Below are positions 30,913-37,027 of a stretch of DNA of 64,000 nucleotides, in pieces. Where the stretch lies: the NCBI RefSeq assembly GCF_001746295.1, contig NZ_MJAH01000001.1:973188-1037187 (forward strand). Reading direction: 5' to 3'. Made by a program: the position numbers and the translations under genes. This DNA comes from Streptomyces sp. LUP47B (GTDB lineage Bacteria > Actinomycetota > Actinomycetes > Streptomycetales > Streptomycetaceae). Numbering within the stretch: position 1 is the first letter of the stretch; each line of letters begins with the position of its first letter. The notes beneath the pieces were generated by a model. It did not search any database and was not told where the DNA came from. It saw only the letters and a program-made list of their open reading frames with translations.

Positions 30913-31494
30913 TCACTCCACCGTGACCACCATGGCCACGACCCTGCGGACCTCCCCCTCCCCGGGCGTCGCACCTTCCGTGTCGGCGAAGAGGAGATGC
31001 GCCGCCCCGATCAGCGCGGGGGCGAGGAGGTCCACGTCGGCGTCGGCCGGTACGCGCCCCAGGTCGCGCTCCGCGGCGAGATAGCCGGCCACCATCGCGG
31101 TCGCCTCCCGCAGCACCGGCACTCCCCCACCCCTCGCCTCGCGCAACCGGGCCCGCAGGGCGTCGCGCGCGATGACCAGGCCGACGATCCGCAGGGCGAT
31201 CGTCCCGAAGAGCTCGGTCAGGGCCGCGGTGAGGTTGTCGACGACCGTGCCGGTCCCGGCCGACTCGCGCAGGGCCCGGGAGCGGGCCTCGATACGCCCG
31301 ATGCGGTCGAGCACCAGGTCGGCGAGAAACGCGTCGAAGTCCTCGAAGTGGCGGTGCAGAACCCCCTTGGCGACCCCTGCCTCGGTGGTGACCGCCCGGC
31401 TGGTCAGCGCGTTCGCCCCGGCCCGCAGCAGGATCCGCTCGGCGGCGTCGAACAACTGCTCCCGCACATCGCGGATGGCGATCCCTGTCGGCAC
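30913..31494 (-). CDS. TetR-family repressor, divergent from methyltransferase
   Basis: 193 residues. The TetR HTH (about 10-55) shows EQLFDAAERILLRAG, LTSRAVTTEAGVAKGVLHRHFEDFDAFL. The ligand domain is helical. The GTG at 31494 was chosen over a GTG at 31506 because GAGG lies 7 nt upstream of it. It is divergent from the SAM methyltransferase and the gap is filled by a large palindrome with two operator-like repeats, so it very likely represses itself and the methyltransferase. The ligand is unknown. Confidence 0.9.
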   Translation of the reverse strand: MPTGIAIRDVREQLFDAAERILLRAGANALTSRAVTTEAGVAKGVLHRHFEDFDAFLADLVLDRIGRIEARSRALRESAGTGTVVDNLTAALTELFGTIALRIVGLVIARDALRARLREARGGGVPVLREATAMVAGYLAAERDLGRVPADADVDLLAPALIGAAHLLFADTEGATPGEGEVRRVVAMVVTVE

Positions 31495-31532
31495 GGCCCA
31501 CCTCACTCTTTCTCGAACATCCTCCCTGATTC

Positions 31533-31581
31533 TTGTCGAGTGGGCATGCGCCCACCTAGAGTGGGCGCATGCCCACTCGAC
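31533..31581 (+). promoter_or_regulatory. 47-bp palindrome: two TetR operators over a leaderless promoter
   Basis: Arms 31535-31555 and 31561-31581 are perfectly complementary over 21 bp with a CTAGA centre. Each arm holds its own near-palindrome, GTGGGC-N4-GCCCAC at 31540-31555 and 31561-31576, centres 21 bp apart. On the plus strand TTGTCG (31533-31538), 18 nt and TAGAGT (31557-31562) form a promoter, and the methyltransferase ATG at 31569 begins 6 nt after the -10, inside the second arm. Repressor binding would cover the -35, the -10 and the start codon at once. Confidence 0.8.
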
Positions 31582-33157: not shown

Positions 33158-33616
33158 GATCGCGGCCTTTCCCGTATCGGTGGTCGGTACGACTCCACAC
33201 GCTAGTCACGGGTGCGCCCGACCGCGCGCCGAACGGACGATTCCGCTTCAGACGGGATGGAAGGGATGCTCTCCGCGATCTGGAGCTTCCATGACGATCC
33301 GGGCATGGTCGGTGGCGGCTCCGGGACCAGTCGAGGAAGGCGGTCTCCGGGTTCGTCGCGACAACCGGTCCCGGAGCCGGGTGACGACCGGGCGCTGCGG
33401 GACCCGAAGGCGGGGCGCTTCGACGGGGCGGCCGTACTGGTGAACGACCCGTCCCGAGGAGCACGGGGGCACTCATGATGCGCCGACTGCCTCACCGGCA
33501 AGGTTTACACCTTCACGACCGTGAAGCCGCCCCCTTCACGCCCTGATCAGGCGACCGCCCCGGCTGTTTGGCTGGTCCTCGCGCAAGGCCAGCCCGCTCA
33601 CCTCCCAGGAGGGAAT
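33158..33616. other. Intergenic leader region of the 2-methylisoborneol operon
   Basis: 459 bp without a gene I can support. The first 320 bp hold short open frames on both strands with poor codon bias and no recognisable product; a decayed gene is possible. The last 110 bp hold the palindrome at 33511-33526 and a weaker GGCTGG/CCAGCC pair (33570-33575, 33589-33594) that could form a leader hairpin. I see no convincing -35/-10 pair. Confidence 0.5.
33511..33526. promoter_or_regulatory. Palindromic operator upstream of the encapsulin/MIB operon
   Basis: CTTCACG-AC-CGTGAAG is a perfect 7+2+7 palindrome about 90 bp upstream of the first start codon, and a further CTTCACG half-site lies at 33534-33540. 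It is the only strong palindrome before the operon and so the best candidate regulatory site. The cognate factor is unknown. Confidence 0.5.
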
Positions 33617-35053
33617 GTGTCCACACCGGACAGCGCCACCGGCCCCGCCGTCGACGAACCCGACCCCCCGTCCGAAGACCGGCTCACCAGCCTCAGCACC
33701 ACGGCCGCCCGGCAACTCGCCACCACCACCAAGTCCGAACCCCAGATGCAGGCCATCAGCTCCCGCTGGCTGCTGCGCATGCTGCCGTGGGTGGACGTGA
33801 AGGGCGGCACCTACCGGGTCAACCGGCGCCTCCAGCTCCGGGTGGGCCGAGGCCGGGTGCAGTTCGAACAGAACGGCGCCGACGACATCAGGGTCATCCC
33901 CCAGACACTCACCGAACTCCCCACTCTGCGCGGTTACTCCGACACCGAGGTCCTCAAAGAGCTCGCGACCCGCTTCCGGGTGCGGGAGATCCGCGCCGGC
34001 CAGGTCCTGGTCGAGGCCGGGCAGCCGGTCACCGAGGCCTACCTCGTCGTGCACGGCCGCTTCACCCGTTTCACCGAGGGCAAGTACGGTGAGGAGGAGA
34101 TCGTCGGTGTCGTCACCGACGGCGCCCAGATGGGCGACGAGGCCATAGGGCAGCCCGATCCGCTGTGGCTGAGCTCGGTCCGGGCCGAGACCGCGGGCGT
34201 GGTGCTGACCCTGCCCTGGTCGGTGGTCACCGAGTTCACCGAGCGGGTCCCGTCCCTCGCGGCCCATCTGGAGGCCTACGCGCGGCGGCAGAGCCTGCCG
34301 ATGAACCGCAAGGGCGAGGCCGACGTCCCCGTCCAGGCGGGGCACGTCGGGGAGCCGACGATCAACGGCGGCTACGTCGACTACGAACTCGCCCCGCGTG
34401 AGTACGAGTTGTCCCTCACCCAGACCGTGCTGCGGGTCCACACCCGGGTCGCCGACCTCTACAACAACCCGATGGACCAGACCGAGCAGCAACTCCGGCT
34501 CACCATCGAGGAGATCCGCGAGCGCCAGGAGTGGGAGCTGGTCAACAACCGGGAGTTCGGGCTGCTGCACAACGCCGACCACGGCCAGCGCGTCAGCACC
34601 TTCACCGGGCCGCCGACCCCCGACGACATGGACGAACTGCTCGCCATGCGCCGCAAGACCAAACTGTTCCTCGCCCATCCGAAGGCCATCGCGGCGTTCT
34701 TCCGGCAGTGCAACCGGCGCGGTCTGGTGCCGGGCACGGCGAGCGTCGAGGGGCACGAGATCCCCGCCTGGCGGGGAGTGCCGATCTTCCCCTGCAACAA
34801 GATCCCGGTCAGCCCGCAGCACACCAGCAGCATCATCGCGCTGCGCACCGGGGAGGGCGACCAGGGTGCCATCGGGCTCTACCAGACGGGCATCCCCGAG
34901 GAGTACCAACCCGGCCTGAACGTACGGTTCATGGGCATCGGCGCCAACTCGATCATCCGCTACCTCGTCACCGCCTACTACTCGATGGCCATCCTCGTAC
35001 CCGACGCGGTCGGGATCCTGGAGAACGCCCAGATCGGGCGGACGGCCGAGTGA
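33617..35053 (+). CDS. Family 2B encapsulin-type shell protein with cyclic-nucleotide-binding domain (EshA-like)
   Basis: 478 residues, close to EshA-type proteins. N-terminal residues 1-35 are disordered. The HK97-like shell fold (E-loop and P/A-domain pieces) is split by an inserted Crp-type cyclic-nucleotide-binding domain at about 115-225 ([38 protein letters not shown]). The shell C-terminal half contains [30 protein letters not shown] and [12 protein letters not shown]. Family 2B proteins self-assemble into about 30-nm compartments that load terpene cyclases. The GTG start at 33617 follows AGGAGGG closely; the longer frame to 33521 is not needed. Its stop overlaps the cyclase GTG. Confidence 0.9.
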
Positions 35054-36096
35054 CCGCGATGAGCACCCAGTCCTTGCCGGGGCCGCCCGACATCGCGAGC
35101 ACCCTGCGCGCCGGCCGGCCCGGCGGGGCGATCCCCGGTCTGAGGTACCGGAAAGTCGCCCCCGCCGACCCGGTGAAGGCCGCGGAGATCGACCGCAGGC
35201 TCGAGGCCTGGGCCCGGCGCCTGGAGCTGTTCCCCGAGACATGGAACGGGGACTTCTCCGGGTTCCAGTTCGGCAGGGCCGTGGTGCTGCAACACCCGGA
35301 GGCGGCCGATCCTGAACGCCTCACCGTGGCCGGGAAGCTGCTCCTCGCCGAGAACATCGTCGACAACTGCTACTGCGAGGAGGACGAGGACAAGGGCGGT
35401 TCGCGCAGTGGCCTCGGCGGACGGCTGGTCCTGGCCCAGTCGGCACTCGACCCGTACCACGGCCCGCCCGACCTCCAGGAGCGGTGGCTGAGCGGAGTGC
35501 AGGCCGACGGGCCGCTCAGGTCGTACCACTGGGCCCTCAAGGACTACGCCGTCATCGCCACTCCCAGCCAGACAGACCGGTTCCTGCACGACATCGCCCG
35601 GCTCCACCTCGGCTATCTGGGCGAGGCCGCCTGGGGCGAGACCCGGTACATGCCCCGGGTATGGGAGTACCTGGTGATGCGGCAGTTCAACAACTTCCGT
35701 CCCTGTCTGTCGATCGTCGACGCGATCGACGGCTGGGAACTGCCCGAGGCGGTGTACGCCCGCCCCGAGATCCAGCGCCTCACCGCACTCGCCGGCAACG
35801 CCACCACCCTCGTCAACGACCTGTACTCCTTCACCAAGGAACTGGCCGACCCCACCCATCTCAACCTGCCCCAGGTCATCGCCGCCAACGAGCGGTGCGG
35901 GCTCAAGGCCGCCTATCTGAAGGCCGTCGGGATCCACAACCAGATCATGGATGCCTTCGACGAGGAGTCGGCCCTGCTCTCCGCCACGTCACCGCTCGTG
36001 GAGCGCTACACCCGGAGCCTGTCCGACTGGGTCGCCGGAAACCACGAGTGGCACGCCACCAACAGCCACCGCTACCACCTGCCCAACTACTGGTAG
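35050..36096 (+). CDS. tpc: 2-methylisoborneol synthase (terpene cyclase)
   Basis: 348 residues from the GTG at 35050 (overlapping the shell-gene stop as GTGA), or 345 from the ATG at 35059. It cyclises 2-methylgeranyl diphosphate to 2-methylisoborneol. The metal motifs are DNCYCEEDE near residue 105 (the family normally reads DDCYCED) and NDLYSFTKE near 257, with the usual [16 protein letters not shown]-type end. From memory Streptomyces coelicolor MIB synthase is about 440 residues with a long Pro/Ala-rich N-terminus; here only some 35-40 residues precede the core. That tail is the presumed encapsulin-loading signal, so this version is unusually short. Its place between shell and methyltransferase makes the call firm. 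Confidence 0.92.
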
Positions 36097-36148
36097 AGCG
36101 CGACCGCATGACAGAACGTCACCCACGCACCAGCACGAGGAGTCACCG

Positions 36149-37027
36149 TTGACCACCGCCCCCCACGCCGGCACCCGGACCATTCCCGTGCCGACCCAGT
36201 CGACGTACCAGAGCCGAGTCGCGGACTACTGGAACGCCGAGGAGAACCCGGTCAACCTCGAACTCGGAAAGCTCGACGACCTCTACCACCACCACTACGG
36301 CATCGGGGAGGCCGACCGCTCCGTCCTCGACGAACCCGATCCGGCACGGCGGCGGGAGCGGATCACCGCCGAACTGCACCGCCTCGAACACGCCCAGGCG
36401 GAATTCCTCGCGGCCCGGCTCGGAACGCTCCGTCCCGAGGACCGTGTCTTCGACGCGGGGTGCGGGCGCGGCGGCGGCAGTGTCGTGGCACATCTGCGGC
36501 ACGGCTGCCACGCCGACGGCGTCACCATCTCCGAGAAGCAGGCGGAGTTCGCCAACGCCCATGCCCGCAAGCGGGGCATCGACGACCGGGTGCGCTACCA
36601 CCACCGCAACATGCTCGACACCGGGCTGCCCTCCGGGGCCTACGCGGCCTCCTGGAACAACGAGTCGACCATGTACGTCGAGCTCGACCTGCTGTTCGCC
36701 GAGCACGCGCGGCTGCTGCGCCGCGGCGGACGCTACGTGGTGATCACCGGTTGCTACAACGACACCTACGGACAGGCATCCCGTGAGGTCTCGCTCATCA
36801 ACGCCCACTACATCTGCGACATCCATCCCCGCTCGGCGTATTTCCGCGCCATGGCCCGCAACCGGCTGGTGCCGGTGCACGTGGAGGACCTCACCGAGGC
36901 GGCCCTGCCCTACTGGGAACTGCGCAAGAAGGCCGACCATCTGGTCACGGGAATCGAGGACACCTTCCTGACGGCCTACCGGAACGGCAGTTTCCAGTAC
37001 CTGCTCATCGCCGCCGACCGCGTCTGA
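36149..37027 (+). CDS. gppmt: Geranyl diphosphate 2-C-methyltransferase
   Basis: 292 residues, SAM-dependent C-methyltransferase that adds a methyl group to C2 of geranyl diphosphate, the step before MIB synthase. The SAM motif DAGCGRGGGSV is near residue 109. The substrate-end block YAASWNNESTMYVELD and TGCYNDTYG follow, and the N-terminus reads VADYWNAEENPVNLELGKLDDLYHHHYG. The TTG start at 36149 is fixed by GAGGAG 6 nt upstream; the ATG at 36110 runs into a stop. It is the last gene of the operon, 52 bp after the cyclase. Confidence 0.94.
   Translation: MTTAPHAGTRTIPVPTQSTYQSRVADYWNAEENPVNLELGKLDDLYHHHYGIGEADRSVLDEPDPARRRERITAELHRLEHAQAEFLAARLGTLRPEDRVFDAGCGRGGGSVVAHLRHGCHADGVTISEKQAEFANAHARKRGIDDRVRYHHRNMLDTGLPSGAYAASWNNESTMYVELDLLFAEHARLLRRGGRYVVITGCYNDTYGQASREVSLINAHYICDIHPRSAYFRAMARNRLVPVHVEDLTEAALPYWELRKKADHLVTGIEDTFLTAYRNGSFQYLLIAADRV

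Follow-up and report, generated by a model that had tools for sequence, protein, structure and literature searches.

In the 64,000-nucleotide stretch of Streptomyces DNA analysed here (the window), a gene for a TetR-family regulator and a gene for a SAM-dependent methyltransferase diverge from start codons that are 75 bp apart, with two putative palindromic operators between them, as expected of a TetR-type divergon. These operators are part of a much longer perfect palindrome, which also holds the methyltransferase start codon. This raises the question whether the palindrome acts as one unit or as two operators, which protein would bind it and how a gene that starts inside an operator would be expressed. 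The reading that we favour, and consider very probable, is that of an autoregulated TetR divergon with a leaderless methyltransferase gene as its target (Table 1).

The palindrome is composed of two arms of 21 nt each, GTCGAGTGGGCATGCGCCCAC (31535-31555) and GTGGGCGCATGCCCACTCGAC (31561-31581), which are 100% complementary and separated by the 5-nt spacer CTAGA. Its length is far beyond chance: across 30 simulated windows with matched dinucleotide make-up, the longest perfect inverted repeat (spacer of up to 20 nt) was 10-16 bp, compared with 21 bp in the real window. An earlier, sequence-only reading had described a 47-bp palindrome with complementary 21-bp arms and a GTGGGC-N4-GCCCAC site in each arm, and both observations are borne out. 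It had placed the palindrome at 31533-31581 with the -35, the -10 and the ATG all inside; the -10 and the ATG are indeed within it, but the 47 bp begin at 31535, position 31533 being the start of the -35, so that the first 2 bp of this element lie outside. The centres of the two operators are 21 bp apart in this strain.

Table 1. Features of the divergon, with positions in the window; promoter elements and the leaderless start are predicted from comparison of relatives.
Feature	Position	Strand	Remarks
TetR-family regulator, 193 aa	30913..31494	-	conserved GTG at 31494; GAGG, Shine-Dalgarno-like, at about 31501-31504
-35-like TTGTCG	31533..31538	+	inferred; TTGACG in most relatives
47-bp perfect palindrome	31535..31581	.	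two 21-bp arms and spacer CTAGA; full-length symmetry strain-specific
Operator 1, GTGGGC-ATGC-GCCCAC	31540..31555	.	between -35 and -10; 18 bp (31539-31556) when the flanking bases are included
-10-like TAGAGT (TAnnnT type)	31557..31562	+	inferred
Operator 2, GTGGGC-GCAT-GCCCAC	31561..31576	.	overlaps the -10; holds ATG CCC AC
SAM-dependent methyltransferase, 263 aa	31569..32360	+	predicted leaderless; starts inside operator 2 (MPT)

The regulator has an N-terminal helix-turn-helix (PF00440, 31.9 bits against a cut-off of 24) and a predicted all-helical fold (AlphaFold2 mean pLDDT 90.9), for which FadR, NemR, EthR2 and KstR are the best PDB matches, and it scores 26.1 against a cut-off of 150 bits with the model for γ-butyrolactone receptors of the ScbR/ArpA/CprB kind (NCBIfam ScbR_bind_reg). 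Its reading frame is extendable to 31506; the GTG at 31494 is the most likely start, because relatives start there too (MPTG). A five-codon reading frame in front of tetR (ATG TTC GAG AAA GAG TGA) was rejected as a gene, since only some members of the closest clade retain its start and stop, and this region is more likely the Shine-Dalgarno region. The methyltransferase has a class I SAM-dependent domain and fold (PF13489, 48.6 bits against a cut-off of 27; also PF08241 and PF13649), the nearest structure being HvrF, solved with pantaphos, with one yeast and one bacterial trans-aconitate methyltransferase, OxaG and GtmA lower in the list. These fold neighbours are small-molecule methyltransferases and point to a likely detoxifying or tailoring reaction; with the trans-aconitate 2-methyltransferase model (NCBIfam PRK14103) the protein scores 34.6 against a cut-off of 320 bits.

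Relatives of this TetR were sought by similarity among 394 genomes of the genus Streptomyces and across a collection that covers about 85,000 species, and 110 related loci were picked, which, being chosen by likeness to this TetR, are not independent samples. They span several actinomycete families (including Streptomyces, Kitasatospora, Nocardia, Frankia, Nonomuraea, Actinomadura, Kutzneria, Saccharothrix and Plantactinospora) and nearly all of them have the divergent methyltransferase. An operator pair, that is two GTGGGC-N4-GCCCAC-like sites, adjoins tetR in 105 of the 110, with the centres 20 bp apart in 50 loci, 21 bp in 54 and 23 bp in one; the ATG is found at the same place inside operator 2 in 100 loci, and the consensus reads TTGACG-AGTGGGC-RNNY-GCCCACT-(C)ATA-GTGGGC-GC-ATG-CCC-ACT-nTA-CC. 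The exact pair is present in 59 of the 394 Streptomyces genomes, once in each except G085 (twice), and the reversed control gave 0. Two loci, in Kutzneria (L043) and Micromonospora (L093), encode the TetR orthologue without the methyltransferase; one of them keeps a single operator, as if operators 1 and 2 had recombined, and the other has a degenerate pair.

The sequence-only reading had proposed that other Streptomyces be compared; the divergon with its operator pair recurs there, whereas the perfect 21-bp arms are not shared. Perfect 21-bp symmetry about the midpoint is found in this strain alone among 98 distinct relatives, its outer arms GTCGA/TCGAC are peculiar to it, CCAGC replaces the right-hand TCGAC in the closest relatives (TetR 94-95% identical), and mirror symmetry of the operator cores is not clearly enriched (17 observed versus 12.6 by chance). 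Together, these comparisons argue that the conserved unit is two separate 18-bp operators, AGTGGGC-RNNY-GCCCACT, and not one 47-bp palindrome or hairpin, and the importance first attached to the long palindrome itself is not supported. A palindrome that acts as a whole, whether as a DNA cruciform, as a hairpin in the tetR 5′ leader or as the full dyad of a higher-order repressor complex, would be in keeping with the very stable hairpin into which its DNA strand folds (-31.8 kcal/mol, z -10.7) and with the fact that a tetR transcript begun to the right of 31581 would carry this hairpin, but with the outer arms missing in close relatives, and the symmetry and core mirroring as described, we regard it as highly improbable. 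The palindrome was also considered as an RNA element and as a terminator, and both were rejected: Rfam matches were all weak, below the gathering score and mostly to eukaryotic miRNA and snoRNA families, which is an effect of the hairpin shape, and no terminator was found.

For the two-operator divergon, the promoter of the methyltransferase is supported by comparison. In about 100 loci, TTGAC-like and TAnnnT-like hexamers flank operator 1 and the ATG follows 6 nt past the -10; in this strain, the -35/-10 spacer is 18 bp and the -10 likewise ends 6 nt 5′ of the ATG at 31569. The reading frame contains a stop at 31557, in the -10 itself, and no other start codon before 31683 (codon 39), so 31569 is the only workable start. 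The methyltransferase mRNA is predicted to be leaderless and to begin at the AUG within operator 2, as had been proposed from the single sequence and is now supported by the promoters of relatives; the accompanying claim, that no hairpin can form in this mRNA, is supported too, provided transcription begins at the ATG. In Streptomyces coelicolor, leaderless mRNAs arise from 21% of primary start sites (PMC4895711). Alternatively, the gene may be transcribed from a promoter further upstream, which would place the operators in the leader of an mRNA that is not leaderless. A strict Escherichia coli sigma-70 consensus scan indeed calls no promoter for the methyltransferase, but the hexamers and their spacing to the ATG are kept in the loci mentioned above, the loci share no conserved sequence upstream of the -35, no obvious Shine-Dalgarno sequence precedes the ATG and the -10 keeps its distance from the ATG at loci with decayed operators, which makes an upstream promoter very unlikely.

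With the start codon inside it, operator 2 reads ATG CCC ACT, which gives Met-Pro-Thr in the protein. ACT stands at codon 3 in 90 of 96 loci, whereas it accounts for about 2% of the remaining Thr codons of these genes; at codon 4, 75 of 98 loci have NTA, against a background of 0.5% in the rest of the same genes. This enrichment indicates that the DNA constrains the protein, and the locus illustrates cleanly how the demands of operator and promoter hold a protein-coding sequence in place. On the opposite strand, codons 3-4 read TAnAGT in most relatives, an actinobacterial -10-like hexamer that may be the tetR -10, abutting the other side of operator 2, or an extension of the operator. This hexamer is missing in the present strain and its clade, and the tetR promoter is therefore not placeable here.

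Three comparative lines tie the operators to the neighbouring TetR. Firstly, operator 1 is lost, with the -10 and ATG kept, in all of the only four available loci with the methyltransferase and no TetR match at E 1e-30 (G228, G233, G091 and G105); operator 2 is nearly intact in two of them, presumably because its left edge and the ATG also serve promoter and start. At a further locus with only a distant TetR (G168), the operator pair persists with 2 mismatches. Secondly, a sister TetR clade (loci L157-L176; 42-52% identity, 100/100 support) is accompanied by tandem operators of the form ATGGGC-N4-GCCCAT/A, with 21 bp as their commonest spacing, which adjoin a divergent and different SAM methyltransferase gene with a Shine-Dalgarno leader. 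Thirdly, all 110 orthologues share the residue R48 in the recognition helix, whereas each of the 20 sisters has A or T there, and we take this residue to align with a position at which TetR contacts DNA. A different regulator, for example another of the many TetR proteins of Streptomyces, might bind the operators instead; this seems most improbable, since operator 1 is lost where the neighbouring TetR is missing, half-site and recognition-helix residue shift together between the two clades, and no further promoter site suited to a global regulator was found in the genome. The one third exact GTGGGC-N4-GCCCAC in the 11-Mb genome is located in an apparent coding region rather than a promoter, and near matches do not outnumber those of the reversed control; the operator pair is the only promoter site found in this genome, and a multi-target regulon was rejected. 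For the neighbouring TetR, the comparison thus provides a defined operator, an R48 to A/T difference that accompanies a change of half-site, and naturally occurring loci that either have or lack the repressor.

Geometry, conservation, the constraint on codons 3-4 and the loss of operator 1 are read from the sequence, and from such patterns we infer TetR binding, repression, the start site and release by a ligand. In the proposed model, one TetR dimer would sit on each operator in the uninduced state, both on the same face of the DNA, since 21 bp correspond to two helical turns. With operator 1 occupying the -35/-10 spacer and operator 2 reaching over the -10 and the start point, RNA polymerase could not initiate transcription of the methyltransferase gene, and the tetR promoter, within the same short region, would probably be shut as well. 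A small ligand, perhaps the methyltransferase substrate, would then free TetR and allow the leaderless mRNA to be made from the AUG in operator 2. Conservation in relatives supports the earlier proposal of a TetR/methyltransferase divergon with two operators covering the promoter; its idea that one repressor covers everything fares less well, two dimers, one per operator, being more likely.

The proposed mechanism is of a known kind. Like Tn10-type tetR/tetA, the locus combines a divergent repressor and target with two palindromic operators over promoters in a short intergenic region (PMC3511530), but here the target is a methyltransferase and not an efflux pump, and the operators nearly abut, one of them holding the ATG of a gene predicted to be leaderless. 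In Streptomyces TetR divergons whose gaps are shorter than 200 bp (ActR, SCO4099, SGR3979, SCO7222 and SCO3367), the divergent neighbour is likewise repressed, with one to three palindromic operators in the gap; their operator words differ, and neither a leaderless target nor a start-codon operator is reported for them in PMC3511530. Where a TetR regulator lies within 200 bp of a divergent gene, repression of that gene was seen in 5/5 published cases tested (PMC3511530), and, since leaderless mRNAs are also abundant in Streptomyces (PMC4895711), the proposed mechanism is the ordinary expectation. A dyad operator in the -35/-10 spacer and a leaderless mRNA, there mapped by 5′-RACE, are combined in Mesorhizobium NreA/nreAXY (PMC12724321), although NreA is a CsoR/RcnR-type metal sensor with one operator and its genes are not divergent. 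In the case of QacR and CprB, two TetR-family dimers bind one DNA stretch cooperatively (PMC4150764), but share one overlapping site (22 bp for CprB), whereas here two separate palindromes lie 21 bp apart. S. coelicolor TamR is described as regulating a small-molecule methyltransferase of similar fold, and metabolites relieve its DNA binding (PMC5487221); TamR, however, is a MarR protein, and the present methyltransferase is far below the trans-aconitate methyltransferase cut-off. The open-access papers searched contained no mention of the operator words or of this TetR/methyltransferase pair, and the subfamily, its operator and the coding-start constraint appear undescribed there.

For this strain alone, the locus would be an ordinary one-target repressor switch; across actinomycetes, it represents a conserved, apparently unstudied regulator. 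A wider reading, which we put forward tentatively as possible rather than probable, is that of a widespread, undescribed TetR subfamily with a compact cassette in which operator, promoter and start codon coincide. Two divergent promoters that abut and exclude each other would have operator 2 as their common core, with the forward -10 to the left of the operator and, for the majority of relatives, the reverse TAnAGT to its right, within codons 3-4 of the methyltransferase gene. DNA binding would thereby dictate the Met-Pro-Thr N-terminus of unrelated targets (methyltransferase and P450), and the sister clade with its altered helix would control a second methyltransferase class.

The double-operator cassette occurs twice in G085 (L144 2565-5662) and in G006 (L145 1478-4611), before a P450 gene and before the methyltransferase gene; the P450 start codon is again inside operator 2 and the protein begins MPTIPP, and a tryptophan halogenase gene adjoins the G006 locus. 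In G256 and G215 (L177-L180), the TetR orthologue is encoded near an apparent terpenoid biosynthetic cluster, judged by eye from protein starts, with P450s and prenyl-transfer-like and isoprenoid-pathway-like genes as neighbours, and a methyltransferase gene in that region carries a single operator in its -35/-10 spacer. Within the window itself, positions 33521-37027 (+) hold an operon-like run of genes whose products are a SrpI-like shell protein of encapsulin type that includes a cyclic-nucleotide-binding domain, a terpene synthase and a methyltransferase; the run resembles a 2-methylisoborneol locus, with 2-methylisoborneol as the presumed product.
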